Shown here piece by piece: positions 5,573 through 12,432 of a stretch of DNA of 12,777 nt. Each line of letters starts with the position of its first letter. The first letter of the stretch is position 1. Below the pieces are notes generated by a model. It saw only the letters and a program-made list of their open reading frames with translations. It was not told where the DNA came from and made no database searches. The DNA is taken from assembly GCA_002309195.1 (NCBI GenBank), contig DBWY01000003.1, positions 1 to 12,777 on the forward strand. Reading direction: 5' to 3'. The position numbers and the translations under genes were made by a program. This stretch comes from Treponema sp. UBA1226. Lineage in GTDB: Bacteria > Spirochaetota > Spirochaetia > Treponematales > Treponemataceae.

Positions 5573-5592
5573 TAGTTAGTTTATACTAACTA
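5573..5592. promoter_or_regulatory. DtxR-like box before the RND remnant
   Basis: A perfect inverted repeat: arms TAGTTAGT and ACTAACTA around TTAT. It lies 20 bases before the start codon and just before the ribosome site (GGAGG, 5603-5607), overlapping a -10-like TATACT (5582-5587). The core is identical to the box at 11140-11159 except for the 4-base spacer. It suggests that the exporter gene was iron-repressed when intact. Confidence 0.65.
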
Positions 5593-5611: not shown

Positions 5612-6315
5612 ATGAAAGTTTCAAAAATCAATTCGTTTTTCCGCAAAATCGGCGAAGCTCAGATAAAGCATCGCTGGATTTGCTTGATTGTACTTCTGGC
5701 TGTAACTCTTTTCTGTCTTTCTGGAATGAAAAATTTCCGTTCTGAAAGCACTAATGAGGACTGGATTGTAAATGGGAGTGAAATCCAGAAAATTCTCCAA
5801 GTGGTGTAATCGTTCCGTTTATAGCAACCCTCTGTGGAATCGGAACAGTACTTGGATTTACAGGACTTTTGAATATTCCTGCAGATTCAGATTTAATGTC
5901 ACTTCCGCTTCTTTTGGGAATGGCACTTTCAATCGGATATGCCCTTCACTACATCAATGCGTTTAAAATGCATTTCAGACAAACGGGAAAGAGAAAAGAA
6001 TCTGTTATCCAGGCAGTAGAAGAATCTGGCTGGCCAATTTTGTTTACTGTAATAACAACAGCTGTTTCTTTACTTTCATTTATGTTTGCAAATATCAGAC
6101 CAATGCTCTGGCTTGGTGTAGTTGCCGCAAGCGTCGTAATGATGGTTTATATTTATGTCGTAGTATTAATTCCAATATTCTTAAGTTTTGGAAAAGATAA
6201 AAATCCTGTTATAAATACAGTCAAGGGAGCAACGAAAGCAGATTTAGCTTTTGAAACCACTTGGAAAAAAGGACGAGCAGTAAAATTGCAGCCGCTTCTT
6301 GATAGTCTTGACTAA
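5612..6315 (+). pseudogene. RND/MMPL-family exporter, internally deleted
   Basis: The start is intact: box, GGAGG and ATG at 5612. About 58 residues follow of a typical N-terminus with one membrane helix (RWICLIVLLAVTLFCLSGM) and the NEDWIVNGSEIQ segment of this exporter family. Around 5780-5800 the sequence jumps to the second half of the first MMPL membrane domain in another frame (from SGVIVPFIATLCGIGTVLGF, through LLLGMALSIGYALHYINAF, to LIPIFLSFGKDKN). The original frame ends at a TAA at 5807-5809. After KADLAFE, near 6256, the homology stops again and the frame runs into what looks like the promoter of the next gene, ending at 6315. Intact relatives have about 800 or more residues and two MMPL domains; here only about 220 codons remain. 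At least two deletions are implied. Confidence 0.85.
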
Positions 6316-6316
6316 C
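6301..6316. promoter_or_regulatory. DtxR-like box before the AraC remnant
   Basis: GATAGT-CTTG-ACTAAC differs from the GTTAGT-N4-ACTAAC core at one base. It lies at the tail of the RND remnant, 23 bases before the ATG of the broken AraC gene. This supports the view that the RND frame has been fused into former promoter DNA. A half copy, GATAGTCTTA, recurs at 6325-6334. Confidence 0.45.
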
Positions 6317-8566: not shown

Positions 8567-10684
8567 TCACACTTCATCCGGTAAAAGCAGCGGTTTTGCA
8601 GCATTTACGCTGAACGCAACGGTCGAAGCATTATGCAGAATTGCCGCAACAGAAGGTGAAATTATTCCAAAAAGACCAAGAAGCATAAATGTCGTATTTA
8701 CTGCAACGATGCCACGGTTATTAGAATCAATTTTCTTCATGAGTCTTGTTCCGAGCACACGTGTTTTATAAAGTCCTTCAAGACCATTATCACACGAAAG
8801 AATTATGTCTGCAGTTTCGCCTGTAATATCTGCGCAGTTTCCCATTGCAATTCCTGTATCTGCACAGGAAAGAGCAGGAGCATCGTTAATTCCGTCACCA
8901 ATCATAATTACTTTATGACCTTTCTTTTTCTGTTCTTCGATGTATTTAAACTTGTCTTCAGGAAGGGCTCTTGAAATGTAATGATCTATTTTCGTAACCT
9001 TTGCCGCATTTTTTGCAGCCCCTTCATCGTCTCCTGTAATCATTACGCAGTTTTTAACTCCGCTTTGATGAAGTTTTTTTATAACTCTGGCAGCGTCTTT
9101 TCTTACAGGATCGTTAAATGCGAAAATACCGATAAGCTTCTTTTCTTCCGCGAGATACAAAAGAGACTCGCCGTTTTGTATTGCTTCATGCTGAATTTGA
9201 TCAAGACCGTCAGGTATTTCTATTTTTTCATCATCAAAAATAAAATGACGGCTTCCTATTACAAGTTTTTTACCGTTTAATTTTGTCGCAATTCCATGAG
9301 CAACGATGTATTCAACCTTTGCATGTTCTTCTGGATGCAGAATTTCACGTTCTGTTGCAGTCTTTACAATTGCATTTGCAACAGGATGCGCAAAATGCTC
9401 TTCAAGACAGGCTGCAATTGCAAGAACTTCATCTTCTGTCCGCCCGTCAAATGCGATGAGTCTTGAAACTTCCGGAGTTGCTGCAGTTAAAGTACCTGTC
9501 TTGTCAAATACAACAGTATCTGCAGCCGAGACTTCTTCAAGAAACTTCCCGCCCTTTACTATAATTCCATTTTCTGCAGCTTCTTTCATTGCACTTAAAA
9601 CTGCAATTGGAGAAGCAAGTTTCATAGCACACGAGTAGTCAACCATGAGCGTTGCCATCACCTTTGCGACATTTCCCGTAAAAAGAAAAACACCAAGTGA
9701 AAGCAAAAAATTATATTTAACAAGCGAATCAGCAAGATATTCTGAGCGCACCTGCGATGAAACCTTTAACCCTTGAGAATTATCTATCATTGCCATAATA
9801 TTCTGAACTTTAGTCTGACTTCCGGCAGCGCGAACTTCTATAAACAGTTCTCCTTCCTGCATTACAGTTCCCGCAAAAACAGAGCTGCCAGAAGTTTTTT
9901 CAACAGCAAGAGGCTCTCCAGTGATGGTCGCCTGATTAACAAGGCCCTCGCCACTCAAAACTGTTCCGTCAACAGGAATAACGCTGCCTGTTCTTACTAC
10001 AACCGTATCACCTTTTTTTAGTACAGAAATCGGGACTGTTTTTTCTATGACTTTTCCGTCTTCTTCCTTCTTTACAAGCTGAACATGATCATTCTGTGAT
10101 AAAAGACGGTTTGCAAGATCAGAATATGATTTCTTTTTTGTAAACTCTTCAATCGTATCACCGATATTCAAAAGAAAATTTATATTTGCCGCAGTTTTTA
10201 TATCACGTGTAATCAATGCCATGGAAATTGCAGCTGCATCAAGAACTTCTGATTTAAAAACTTTTCCTTTTGAAATCTGTTCAATTCCCTTTAAAATACG
10301 AGGTCCCAGAGAAATAACCCTGATTAATATTCTAAGAGGAAGTGGTAATATTCTTTTTACATAATGCATGACAGTCATAAGTCCAAGATCAAACAAAAGT
10401 CTTTCCTGTTCGTCAGGTTCTTCAACTGCCTCAAGCATTTCCTGATTTTTTAAATATTTATCCGAAAGTGCAATAAAGTATGCTTTAATGTACTTTTCAG
10501 AAAGTTTTTTTACATCATAATAAATAAGGAAGGAGCCTGTTGTATAGTTAACACTTACATCAGACATCCCCTCCTGAACAGAAAGCAGACTGTATGCCAG
10601 AGCAGCCTGTCGCCTTGATATTCTTGATTTGTCATAGCGAATACGTATTCGCCCTGGCAGAGAATGCTTTACAGTAAAGTTCAT
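8567..10684 (-). CDS. P1B-type heavy-metal-translocating ATPase
   Basis: A 705-residue ATPase. In order: an HMA_2-like N-terminal domain without CxxC (1-75), membrane segments, the actuator domain with TITGEP (253-258), the ion-path helix with Ser-Cys-Ala (351-353) and ASP (357-359), the phosphorylation site DKTGT with Asp394, the P1B His-Pro motif (433-434), the hinge GDGIND (597-602), and two terminal helices ending HNASTVAFSVNAAKPLLL. The usual CPC of copper and zinc pumps is replaced by SCA, so this is a divergent subgroup; the metal cannot be set by motif. It starts directly after the stop of the small gene before it (TAAATG), so translation is coupled. The same pairing of a small membrane protein with a P1B pump is known for PacL1-CtpC of Mycobacterium tuberculosis. 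DtxR-like boxes upstream point to Fe or Mn. Confidence 0.93.
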   Translation of the reverse strand: MNFTVKHSLPGRIRIRYDKSRISRRQAALAYSLLSVQEGMSDVSVNYTTGSFLIYYDVKKLSEKYIKAYFIALSDKYLKNQEMLEAVEEPDEQERLLFDLGLMTVMHYVKRILPLPLRILIRVISLGPRILKGIEQISKGKVFKSEVLDAAAISMALITRDIKTAANINFLLNIGDTIEEFTKKKSYSDLANRLLSQNDHVQLVKKEEDGKVIEKTVPISVLKKGDTVVVRTGSVIPVDGTVLSGEGLVNQATITGEPLAVEKTSGSSVFAGTVMQEGELFIEVRAAGSQTKVQNIMAMIDNSQGLKVSSQVRSEYLADSLVKYNFLLSLGVFLFTGNVAKVMATLMVDYSCAMKLASPIAVLSAMKEAAENGIIVKGGKFLEEVSAADTVVFDKTGTLTAATPEVSRLIAFDGRTEDEVLAIAACLEEHFAHPVANAIVKTATEREILHPEEHAKVEYIVAHGIATKLNGKKLVIGSRHFIFDDEKIEIPDGLDQIQHEAIQNGESLLYLAEEKKLIGIFAFNDPVRKDAARVIKKLHQSGVKNCVMITGDDEGAAKNAAKVTKIDHYISRALPEDKFKYIEEQKKKGHKVIMIGDGINDAPALSCADTGIAMGNCADITGETADIILSCDNGLEGLYKTRVLGTRLMKKIDSNNRGIVAVNTTFMLLGLFGIISPSVAAILHNASTVAFSVNAAKPLLLPDEV

Positions 10685-10891
10685 TTATGCCTTCTTTGCA
10701 TCCTGTTCTGCTTTAACGTCTTCTGCATCTTCTTTTAAGGTCTCAAAATATTCTTTTGCATCATCTTTAAGCTGAAGACCGCCTGCAACAACCTTTGCAC
10801 AACCCTTTCTAAAAGTGTCTGTTTTAATAAAAGCTGCTGCAGCAATTCCTGCTGCCACACCCCAAAGAAATTTTTTTGTACCTTCTGTCAT
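10685..10891 (-). CDS. PacL/DUF6110-like small membrane protein
   Basis: A 68-residue protein with GGAGG before the ATG. Residues 6-24 form a glycine/alanine-rich membrane segment (KFLWGVAAGIAAAAFIKT), followed by a short amphipathic stretch and a highly charged C-terminal helix (DDAKEYFETLKEDAEDVKAEQ). It is the first gene of the P-type ATPase operon and its stop touches the ATPase start. Family knowledge: such proteins (DUF1490/PacL in mycobacteria, DUF6110 in Firmicutes) sit beside P1B ATPases and help them work in the membrane. The His/Asp metal-binding tail reported for PacL1 is not seen here, only acidic residues. Family assignment is moderate; the partnership with the ATPase is strongly suggested by position. 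Confidence 0.72.
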   Translation of the reverse strand: MTEGTKKFLWGVAAGIAAAAFIKTDTFRKGCAKVVAGGLQLKDDAKEYFETLKEDAEDVKAEQDAKKA

Positions 10892-10908: not shown

Positions 10909-10974
10909 AATTAGTATTGCCTAACTGTTATCTATGACTAACTTACCACAAAATAAAGTTATATGCAACTAACT
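10909..10974. promoter_or_regulatory. Three DtxR-like boxes before the P-type ATPase operon
   Basis: Plus-strand readings: AATTAGT-ATTG-CCTAACT (10909-10926), TGTTATC-TATG-ACTAACT (10926-10943) and AGTTATA-TGCA-ACTAACT (10957-10974). Each keeps a 4-base spacer and one strong half-site. The first and third match the symmetrical consensus at 12 of 14 arm bases; the middle one is weaker. The centres are 17 and 31 bases apart. No convincing -35/-10 pair could be fixed between them. Multiple boxes suggest cooperative binding or wrapping by the DtxR-type regulator. Confidence 0.6.
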
Positions 10975-10990: not shown

Positions 10991-11026
10991 AAAAAAAAGA
11001 CACCTGACTGGCTGGATCAGGTGTCT
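10991..11026 (-). terminator. Rho-independent terminator of the candidate small RNA
   Basis: Minus strand: a perfect 10-bp stem AGACACCTGA/TCAGGTGTCT (10998-11026) with a 9-base loop, followed by seven more T after the stem (10997-10991). On the plus strand no T tract follows, so it works in one direction. It separates the upstream transcript from the P-type ATPase operon promoter region. Confidence 0.85.
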
Positions 11027-11115
11027 AAAGGTTTACATATAACGCTATAAGAGACTATAAACGCTAAAATCTTCATCACAGGAGTAGAAGATTATTGTTA
11101 GCCTTAACTAACTTT
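10991..11115 (-). ncRNA. Candidate DtxR-controlled small RNA, about 120 nt
   Basis: A minus-strand promoter (-35/-10 at 11150-11122) predicts a start near 11115, and a strong terminator ends the transcript near 10991. No good coding frame with a ribosome site lies inside. The RNA has a first hairpin with arms AAUCUUC/GAAGAUU (11068-11093), whose 12-base loop reads UACUCCUGUGAU. The loop exposes CUCC, complementary to Shine-Dalgarno GGAG. A central single-stranded A/U-rich region and the terminator hairpin follow. Two DtxR-like boxes lie at the promoter. This layout (metal-regulated promoter, CU-rich loop, terminator) is that of iron-sparing small RNAs such as RyhB and FsrA, although no sequence likeness is claimed. 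The alternative is a short attenuated leader of the P-type ATPase operon or a tail of the dtxR mRNA. Confidence 0.5.
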
Positions 11116-11159
11116 AATTAAATACTACACTAATTTTTAAAGTTAGTCAATACTAACTT
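11097..11159 (-). promoter_or_regulatory. Promoter of the candidate small RNA with two DtxR-like boxes
   Basis: Minus strand: -35 TTGACT (11145-11150), a 17-base spacer, and -10 TAGTAT (11122-11127). The -35 lies inside a perfect inverted repeat, AAGTTAGT-CAAT-ACTAACTT (11140-11159), which also overlaps the stop codon of the DtxR gene. A second box, GTTAGC-CTTA-ACTAAC (11097-11112), covers the predicted start region. Box centres are 45 bases apart. Binding at either would block transcription, so repression by metal-loaded DtxR-type protein is the expected mode. Confidence 0.68.
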
Positions 11160-11520
11160 ACTTTTTTTTAACAATTTTTTTGATTGCTTTAAAAGATTCC
11201 GGGCTTATATCATGTTCAATTTTACATGCATCTGCCGCTGCGATTGCAGGCTTAACACCGATCTGCTCAAAAAATTCTGTAAGAATTGTATGGCGTTCAT
11301 AAATTGTTTTAGCAATTTCTTCGCCTTTGGCAAGGAGTTTTATCGACTGGTCATCTCCTATCGAAATATACTTTTCCTGCTCAAGATTATGAAGTGCAAT
11401 GCTTACCGATGGGCGGGAAAACTTCATTTCCTTTGCTATATCGATTGCCCGCACATTTCCTTTCTTTGAAAGAACAAGAATTGTTTCGAGATACATTTCT
11501 GCGGATTCTTTGATTACCAT
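11158..11520 (-). CDS. DtxR-family metalloregulator, iron-type ligands
   Basis: A 120-residue protein, short as in MntR/TroR, with no C-terminal SH3-like domain. The winged helix covers residues 1-72 (SAEMYLETILVL, then IAKEMKFSRPSVSIALHNLEQE with the recognition helix). The dimer and metal region follows (ERHTILTEFFEQIGV, then ADACKIEHDIS). Aligned with known members, the primary site has Met9, Cys99, Glu102 and His103, the Met/Cys set of the iron regulators DtxR and IdeR rather than the Asp/Glu set of MntR. The ancillary-site ligands of DtxR look lost (Thr81, Ala95). AGGGG precedes the ATG. It lies between the feo genes and the P-type ATPase operon and is the likely reader of the GTTAGT-N4-ACTAAC boxes. 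Its own promoter has no box. Confidence 0.87.
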   Translation of the reverse strand: MVIKESAEMYLETILVLSKKGNVRAIDIAKEMKFSRPSVSIALHNLEQEKYISIGDDQSIKLLAKGEEIAKTIYERHTILTEFFEQIGVKPAIAAADACKIEHDISPESFKAIKKIVKKK

Positions 11521-11650: not shown

Positions 11651-12244
11651 TTATCGCTTATACTGCGCTGCTTCCATAAGTTCGTCCCAGTATTTTACTG
11701 CAATATCTACAATATCCGGGTCATACCTTGTGCCAGAACACTTTTTTATTTCTTCAAAGCATTCTTTTTCAGAAAAGGCACTTCGATAACTTCTGGTCGT
11801 CATCATTGCATCAATTGAGTCACATACTGCGATTATCCTTGAACCTACAGGAATTGAGTAACCTGAAGTCCCGTCCGGATAGCCCAGACCGTCAAATCGC
11901 TCATGATGATGCAGGACGATTTCTGCAAGAGGCTCAAAGGCAGATGCCTTTCTCAAAATTCTTGCACCGATTGCAGGATGCTGTTTTATTACAGAAAATT
12001 TCTCATCTGTAAGTTTTCCTGATTTTCTTAAAATTGAATCTGGTATACCGATTTTCCCGATATCGTGTAGGTGTGCAGAAAAGTGAAAAAGTCTTGTTTC
12101 ATCTTCAGAAAAACCCATCCTGTGCGAAATGGCGAGTACCATATCACTTACCCGCCTTGAATGGCCTTCTGTATAATAGTCACGTTCTTCGAGTGCAGTT
12201 GTTATGCATTCAATCATTTCATGAAATTCAACTACCCCAAACAT
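11651..12244 (-). CDS. Stand-alone HD-GYP domain phosphodiesterase
   Basis: A 197-residue protein made only of an HD-GYP domain. The metal and catalytic residues are complete: His28 (EGHSRRV), the His60-Asp61 pair in HLHDIGKIGIPD, His89 (KQHPAIGA), HHHERFDGLGYPDG (His112/113, Gly-Tyr-Pro 121-123) and Asp142 (VCDSIDAMMTTRSYR). Family knowledge: HD-GYP enzymes hydrolyse cyclic di-GMP at a di- or tri-iron centre. No receiver, PAS or membrane segment precedes the domain, so regulation would be by expression or metal supply. The start at ATG 12242-12244 has a GGAG 13 bases upstream, longer than ideal. It follows the FeoB-associated gene by 18 bases and is co-transcribed with it. Activity on c-di-GMP is expected but not shown. 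Confidence 0.9.
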   Translation of the reverse strand: MFGVVEFHEMIECITTALEERDYYTEGHSRRVSDMVLAISHRMGFSEDETRLFHFSAHLHDIGKIGIPDSILRKSGKLTDEKFSVIKQHPAIGARILRKASAFEPLAEIVLHHHERFDGLGYPDGTSGYSIPVGSRIIAVCDSIDAMMTTRSYRSAFSEKECFEEIKKCSGTRYDPDIVDIAVKYWDELMEAAQYKR

Positions 12245-12262
12245 TTATTAAAGGCCACTCCT

Positions 12263-12418
12263 TTACTTTAATTTTTCACACCCACCATGCTTACTGCACA
12301 TTCCGCACGAAGGACAGCCGGCACAACTTTTTCCTTTTTTCTTATCGCGAATCATTTTTACAATAATTGCACAAACGACTGCTAAAAGAATTAAACTTAC
12401 AAAAATTGTACCAGCCAT
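12263..12418 (-). CDS. FeoB-associated Cys-rich membrane protein
   Basis: A 51-residue protein with GGAGG before the ATG (12416-12418). One N-terminal membrane helix (AGTIFVSLILLAVVCAIIV) is followed by a basic stretch and the Cys cluster GKSCAGCPSCGMCSKHGGC, with five cysteines. This is the layout of the FeoB-associated Cys-rich family, commonly encoded right after FeoB and thought to aid ferrous iron handling like FeoC in other bacteria. It begins 14 bases after the feoB stop, in the same operon. The identification is good because family, size and position all agree. Confidence 0.85.
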   Translation of the reverse strand: MAGTIFVSLILLAVVCAIIVKMIRDKKKGKSCAGCPSCGMCSKHGGCEKLK

Positions 12419-12432
12419 ATTTCCCTCCGGCT

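Follow-up and report, generated by a model that had tools for sequence, protein, structure and literature searches.

A putative stand-alone, diverged member of a DtxR-controlled RNA family in Treponema that may couple flavodoxin expression to ferredoxin repression

MntR and IdeR both belong to the DtxR family of proteins, and IsaR1, an RNA of cyanobacteria, is controlled by Fur. Regulatory RNAs have likewise been assigned to DtxR-type proteins: in the available portions of the respective papers, MrsI of Mycobacterium is described to have an IdeR box (PMC8628891, PMC9410917) and RsaC of Staphylococcus to be made from an operon under MntR (PMC9438474, PMC12421985). The locus presented here was initially noticed as a candidate RyhB-like RNA under a DtxR protein, for which no described counterpart was known in this kind of organism. 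For this kind of organism this holds as far as searched, with no such RNA of Treponema being named in the titles of open-licence papers among the matches listed; beyond them, MrsI with its IdeR box and RsaC from an MntR-controlled operon are precedents. We read the locus as a stand-alone, diverged member of a DtxR-controlled Treponema RNA family, the RNA of which would block ferredoxin so that flavodoxin takes over, and assign a probability of roughly one half to this reading.

The window, i.e., the whole stretch of 12,777 nucleotides of Treponema sp. UBA1226 that was analysed, harbors an RNA unit on its minus strand directly after dtxR, composed of a promoter, two DtxR-type boxes and a terminator. 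The promoter TTGACT-N17-TAGTAT (11150-11122), a pattern match alignable to flavodoxin promoters, features the -35 TTGACT at 11150-11145, a 17-base spacer and the -10 TAGTAT at 11127-11122, exactly as the original prediction had it, although the hexamers by themselves are at chance level (3 found vs. 2.1 expected). Box 1, GTTAGTCAATACTAAC (11142-11157), overlaps the -35 and has no mismatch to the palindrome, and box 2, GTTAGCCTTAACTAAC (11097-11112), spans the predicted start; both had been proposed at these places, the second one now turning out to carry one mismatch. The start-to-start distance of the two boxes is 45 bases. Boxes with at most one mismatch occur four times in the window vs. 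none in 30 dinucleotide shuffles and are thus far above chance. The predicted RNA (10998-11115, minus strand), delimited by promoter and terminator and without clear protein according to the ORF list, comprises about 118 nt where about 120 had been estimated, and ends in an intrinsic terminator (11026-10998, minus strand) with a T tract and a stem of 11 pairs instead of the estimated 10. In its loop the terminator presents GCCA, as do many members of the family in the alignment. The absence of a credible protein was borne out as well, with no ORF of at least 60 aa in the ORF list of the window overlapping the unit, and the unit in the window is confirmed to be real.

The dtxR gene (11158-11520, minus strand) encodes a repressor of 120 aa, recognized by the Pfam families PF02742 and PF01325 above their cut-offs, which is presumed to regulate the boxes. 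Its residues Met9, Cys99, Glu102 and His103 align with the metal site of MntR, the wild-type chains of which feature Asp and Glu where the repressor of the window has Met9 and Cys99. Met and Cys at those places of the metal site are the iron-type pattern of DtxR and IdeR. In addition, the seven most closely related loci were compared: in L001-L006 feoB ends about 300 bases ahead of dtxR on the same strand, and in L007 it lies on the other side of dtxR. In the window, an HD-domain gene and a small cysteine-rich ORF are situated between feoB and dtxR (11651-12425). The proximity of dtxR and feoB in the relatives together with the Met and Cys residues favors iron, short of proof, as the metal which the repressor would sense.

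Relatives of the unit were sought in 200 genomes of the genus and 274 genomes of the family (G numbers denote genomes, L numbers loci). Its first 63 bases match G001, G002 and G003 at 81, 76 and 77%, respectively. The matched places are flavodoxin promoters in G001 and G002; that of G003 is a two-way promoter with flavodoxin on one side and a phosphoglycerate-mutase-like gene on the other, the match being better in the direction of the latter. Two-way dual-box promoters facing flavodoxin and mostly a phosphoglycerate-mutase-like gene were also observed at L161, L162, L170, L171, L182 and L186-L188. Overall, the window promoter resembles the dual-box flavodoxin promoters of rumen Treponema, and box 1 holds the same position as in the flavodoxin promoters of the relatives. 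An exact search for TTAGTATTGACTAAC revealed matches in 28 of the 200 genus genomes. Thirty of these loci were examined, two being repeats of one place: 24 feature a flavodoxin start directly behind the box on one of the strands, one a truncated flavodoxin and one an operon with flavodoxin further on, the remaining four being of other kinds. In G002, flavodoxin is located between dtxR and the ATPase operon, on the opposite strand.

Flavodoxin mRNAs behind dual-box promoters often terminate in UAGGCUCUUAUAAAAU followed by a terminator. Both G108, with flavodoxin truncated to 22 codons, and G097, which has no ORF at all, retain the 3' end GGCTCTTATAAAAT plus terminator. Of 70 flavodoxin loci read, 23 have the element, starting at the stop codon of flavodoxin. 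A covariance model (R1) was built from 19 flavodoxin 3' ends selected by their core, with the window, G097 and G108 left out. It detected 31 places in 30 of the 200 genus genomes at E <=2.2e-6, the next match following at 1.7e-4. Among these places, 23 follow full flavodoxin ORFs, one follows a truncated ORF and seven lie behind boxes without flavodoxin (G097, G107, G063, G090, G139, G131, G177). One to three boxes with at most two mismatches are found upstream of the element at the seven loci, those of G090 and G139 being variants with two mismatches. No ATG ORF of at least 10 codons occurs at the loci of G097, G107, G090 and G139; G063 has a 27-codon ATG ORF without a well-placed ribosome site, and a similar 28-codon ORF is found between box and element in G131 and G177. 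The latter reads MDA(V/L)ILVSIG... with a GGAGG- or GAGG-like site ahead (L287 1400-1569 in G131, L288 135-303 in G177) and perhaps encodes a small membrane protein replacing flavodoxin. A flavodoxin match is present in 122 of the 200 genomes, with G063, G131 and G139 having flavodoxin elsewhere, in G063 without the element; G090, G097, G107, G108 and G177 are not among the 122, with the caveat that genome sequences may have gaps. With the window and the stand-alone members among its sequences, a second model (R2) matched 32 of the 274 family genomes at E <=0.001, with G267 and G273 lying outside the genus set and having flavodoxin in front. Downstream of flavodoxin and element in these two (L372 and L371, respectively), box-like palindromes were seen by eye, followed by a gene starting like an iron-complex binding lipoprotein and a NifH-like frame. 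As judged from the matches, RNAs similar to that of the window appear to exist in the genus, mostly as flavodoxin 3' UTR.

The element is more conserved than the third codon positions of flavodoxin. Pairwise comparison of the 23 flavodoxin loci that contain TAGGCTC shows the 11 bases following GGCTC to be 75% identical vs. 56% for third codon positions (189 pairs), and among the closer pairs (41) the values are 97% vs. 70%. Its occurrence goes along with that of the boxes: it follows 20 of the 26 flavodoxins that are preceded by a box at a distance of up to 110 bases, and 4 of the 44 that are not. At the loci without flavodoxin, the stretch from box to core looks unrelated across genomes except for G131 and G177, and the core is retained. 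The terminator stem covaries, with 10 of 11 pairs showing changes on both sides, as terminators do. Folds were predicted for four stand-alone RNAs: those of G097, G139 and G107 leave the core free, and that of G090 pairs part of it, as does the predicted fold of the window RNA.

Within the window, R1 assigns 34.6 bits (E 1.1e-5) to a putative copy of the conserved element at 11057-10990 on the minus strand, immediately following the boxed promoter, with the core UAGUCUCUUAUA at 11057-11046. The next-best match in the window reaches 18.4 bits and the best one other than a flavodoxin end 23.2 bits (218,616 bases, twelve related loci), and scores of 27-40 bits also arise as background in whole genomes. 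The core agrees with the family core GGCUCUUAUAAAA in 11 of 12 positions (24 of 20000 shuffles) and, together with the preceding base, in 12 of 13, a value which shuffling of the RNA body attained 5 times in 20000. Likewise, TAGTCTCTTATA is the sole stretch of the window with at least 10 of 12 matches to TAGGCTCTTATA. As a whole, AGGCTCTTATAAAAT is equalled by 983 of 20000 shuffles, and longer consensus strings are no better than chance. The core weight matrix, the GGCTC columns of which are constant by the selection of members, is weak for the window, with 294 of 10000 shuffles being as good and 3842 of 10000 if the stop codon is disregarded. The window core is diverged (GUCUCUUAUAGCG). If the unit belongs to the family at all, it is a divergent member; we think that it does belong, since it has the expected position and strand, a matching promoter and a suitable distance to the terminator.

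According to a possible, albeit unlikely, alternative, the unit is the relic of a DtxR-controlled gene, perhaps flavodoxin, that lost its ORF and left behind promoter and terminator, which may still be transcribed and would be functionless. Flavodoxin loci do lose their ORF, with 22 codons left in G108, none in G097 and seemingly a few last ones in G107, and in the alignment no core has diverged further than that of the window. Nevertheless, the boxes, the promoter and the terminator of the window are intact, and a plain deletion of the ORF from the arrangement of G002, with flavodoxin on the opposite strand, does not give the unit of the window. Moreover, the core is retained behind boxes in G063, G090 and G139, where no trace of flavodoxin was seen. 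The copy in the window may work in spite of its divergence or may be fading, and the former is given better odds because of the intact signals and the mismatch with a G002-like deletion.

The putative function of the family was approached through its partner protein. Since s-SodF acts on the twin superoxide dismutase, ferredoxin was examined as target, and the mRNA of a small 2[4Fe-4S] ferredoxin has a Shine-Dalgarno region complementary to the family core GCUCUUAUAAAAU. Small ferredoxins were sought in 12 RNA-bearing genomes, with one of two small ferredoxin-like ORFs used for G090. The site of G097 was already known from a complement search, and for the other 11 the expectation of complementarity was written down at sequence retrieval. 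At each of the 12 ferredoxin starts, the predicted duplex spans the ribosome site, with energies of -10.4 to -17.1 kcal/mol and, in the typical case, UUUUAUAGGAGC vs. GCUCUUAUAAAA with one G-U. Ferredoxin matches were present in 182 genus genomes, 72 of which entered a wider test, 25 of them RNA-bearing (the RNA-bearing G031, G038, G058, G089 and G106 fell outside it) and 47 others. Mean duplex energies were -13.8 kcal/mol in the RNA-bearing genomes vs. -9.4 in the others, duplexes of -12 kcal/mol or stronger occurred in 21 of 25 vs. 13 of 47, and complementary runs of at least 10 bp in 21 of 25 vs. 16 of 47, compared to 3 of 259 other gene starts. These control starts, taken uncurated from genus and family loci with or without the RNA as ORFs of at least 120 aa with a Shine-Dalgarno-like site, averaged -5.9 kcal/mol, two of them reaching -12, and the reversed element gave -5.0 kcal/mol against the ferredoxin sites. 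After two mislocated starts were dropped and G035 was moved, the comparison stood at 22 of 26 vs. 12 of 44 (Fisher p 3e-6, with kinship ignored).

Individual variants differ in their fit. G131 and G177 have variant elements that pair over 15 and 11 bp, respectively, with the variant ferredoxin site of the same genome, vs. 10 and 7 for the common element, whereas the variant of G090 fits its own site less well than the common element does (-12.4 vs. -14.4 kcal/mol). G060 fits poorly (-8.7), with neither its own nor the common element fitting well. In RNA-bearing genomes, the seven bases before GGAG are 75% identical between pairs, compared to 39% for the ten bases before those. Twelve of the 44 genomes without detected element have an equally good ferredoxin site, which is thus not tied to the RNA. 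The site is older or more widespread than the RNA, and it is probably the RNA that adapted to the site.

For the window copy, ferredoxin as target is inferred from the relatives. Its core forms runs of 8-11 bp with 10 of 11 ferredoxin sites of relatives and 5 in G177; on the sites of RNA-bearing relatives it averages -9.5 kcal/mol vs. -14.0 for the common core. Written as GUCUCUUAUA, it fits sites such as UAUAGGAGAC of G062 best (-13.2). In general searches for complements near gene starts, ferredoxin did not emerge as target, G097 excepted. TATARGAGCC near ATG occurs in at least 113 of the 200 genomes, with no recurring gene noted at first among the matches listed. A search in six genomes for TTTTATAAGAGCC (13 bases, at most one mismatch) gave 138 places vs. 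68 for the reversed pattern, and none of 30 loci drawn from these places had the pattern at a convincing ribosome site. The first gene of the ATPase operon was also considered as target and rejected, as the complementary site TATAGGAGCC is present in G003, G009 and G047 but absent from most of the relatives shown.

The unit, its boxes, the homology within the family, the conservation and the complementarity are computational results, and on these grounds the following sequence of events is proposed. If iron becomes scarce, the DtxR-type repressor would leave the two boxes and the RNA would be made. Its core, GCUCUUAUAAAAU in most members, would pair with the small ferredoxin mRNA at its ribosome-binding site, the pairing would lower ferredoxin translation, and flavodoxin could then replace ferredoxin. 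In most relatives with the RNA, it corresponds to the 3' end of the flavodoxin mRNA, from which it would have to be released. With even odds, we propose that the 3' UTR of an iron-repressed flavodoxin mRNA contains an antisense to the ferredoxin ribosome site, so that the mRNA of an iron-free protein would turn off the iron-containing twin and the exchange is accomplished in one act, and that this antisense was uncoupled into DtxR-controlled sRNA genes, that of the window included, where flavodoxin was lost or moved. If true, this would be a base-pairing iron-sparing circuit in Treponema with the exact target site named, and it would tie the classic ferredoxin-flavodoxin exchange to an RNA inside the flavodoxin message. 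In addition, the loci with full ORF, 22-codon ORF and no ORF would illustrate how an mRNA tail may in nature have turned into an independent sRNA gene step by step.

The original prediction located the working part elsewhere, namely in a first hairpin presenting UACUCCUGUGAU in its loop, suited to pair with GGAG ribosome sites. As an alternative to the reading above, this hairpin would serve as an anti-Shine-Dalgarno arm against targets other than ferredoxin. In the predicted fold, the first hairpin of the RNA is box 2 itself, and in the next one (11068-11093, minus strand), which contains UACUCCUGUGAU, only UCCU (11083-11080) is unpaired and UAC pairs with GUG. CUCCU is complementary to GGAG, and the available parts of the source describe that FsrA binds Shine-Dalgarno sites via a C-rich motif and that IsrR has C-rich regions (PMC9410917). 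Still, the hairpin is not conserved: relatives of it were found neither in the 200 genus genomes nor, by its exact pattern, in viral contigs or 160 loci (0 matches in each), which renders an sRNA of this kind improbable. The assumption of an anti-Shine-Dalgarno stretch was right in kind, with the conserved stretch being a different one situated about 28 bases further 3'. With the RNA body as blastn query, the 200 genus genomes were matched mainly at terminators and T tracts; without the terminator, nine short matches were left, and none of the seven loci examined had such a unit. Likewise, a plasmid collection contained no match to the unit, and no copy of it was seen in the 520 bases downstream of dtxR in 23 related loci, with L005 featuring a boxed promoter after dtxR but ahead of an ORF. 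Folding energy of the RNA body was dropped as evidence: the z of -4.3 for the complete RNA is owed to the terminator, with values of -1.4 without terminator, which is unremarkable, and -1.85 without terminator and operator.

A comparably doubtful explanation regards the unit as leader or attenuator of the downstream ATPase operon, or merely as the 3' end of the dtxR transcript. The unit does lie on the same strand as dtxR and the operon, and box 1 starts right behind the dtxR stop codon. However, past the terminator, three more boxes with two mismatches each (10910-10973, starts at 10910, 10927 and 10958) are the operon's own control region and lie outside the RNA, and the boxes directly ahead of the operon in relatives come without such a leader among the matches listed. 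The operon (8567-10891) comprises a YtxH-like gene of 68 aa and a P-type ATPase with HMA_2 domain, and we take it to resemble the ferrosome fez clusters. FezB is designated a putative iron transporter in the available part of the source (PMC11334425). Promoters of the ATPase operon are boxed in the window and in many relatives, often being divergent from flavodoxin. Two more strong boxes of the window are located at 5575-5590 and 6301-6316 (0 and 1 mismatch, respectively); the former precedes an ORF at 5612 whose beginning resembles that of an RND-type gene, which in G003 is divergent from the ATPase operon and in the window appears split into short frames. That the unit encodes a peptide is highly improbable, as the ATG with its 19 codons inside the RNA lacks a purine-rich ribosome site and runs into the terminator stem to its stop, and as the stand-alone relatives G097, G090 and G139 have no ATG ORF of at least 10 codons and the 27 codons of G063 no well-placed ribosome site.

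Compared with known systems, the proposed RNA would share the iron-sparing role with RyhB, FsrA and IsrR, the latter two acting at or near ribosome sites according to the available parts of the source (PMC9410917). These RNAs are under Fur control, and a Rfam scan of the window revealed no family at its gathering score, RyhB included. IsaR1 is an iron-stress RNA repressing ferredoxin 1 among other targets, but a regulator of cyanobacterial photosynthesis, and it is not given as a flavodoxin 3' UTR in the available parts of the source (PMC7247011). MrsI (ncRv11846) of Mycobacterium tuberculosis responds to iron limitation and spares iron with an IdeR, and thus DtxR-type, box; it differs in being encoded on its own and in acting on hypF and bfrA through a 6-nt seed, and the sources, as far as available, give no link to flavodoxin (PMC8628891, PMC9410917). 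In s-SodF of Streptomyces, the 3' UTR of sodF, the mRNA of one twin enzyme carries the RNA that shuts off the other, sodN; according to the available part of the source, it depends on Nur and nickel and forms a 19-bp duplex leading to decay (PMC9438474), whereas 10-13 bp at the ribosome site are predicted in Treponema. RsaC of Staphylococcus aureus, as described in the available parts of the sources, likewise is an RNA from an mRNA 3' end (mntABC) under a metal repressor of the same family and lowers a protein needing the scarce metal, with manganese and SodA in place of iron and ferredoxin (PMC9438474, PMC12421985). Moreover, it measures 584-1116 nt (PMC9438474) vs. about 70-135 nt for the Treponema RNA, the two being likened by description and not by sequence, and stand-alone versions are not mentioned in these parts of the sources (PMC9438474, PMC12421985). 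By analogy, the proposed Treponema RNA would resemble MrsI as an iron RNA controlled by a DtxR-type repressor, and would work most like RsaC with regard to its 3'-end origin and metal sparing and most like s-SodF with regard to the twin swap.
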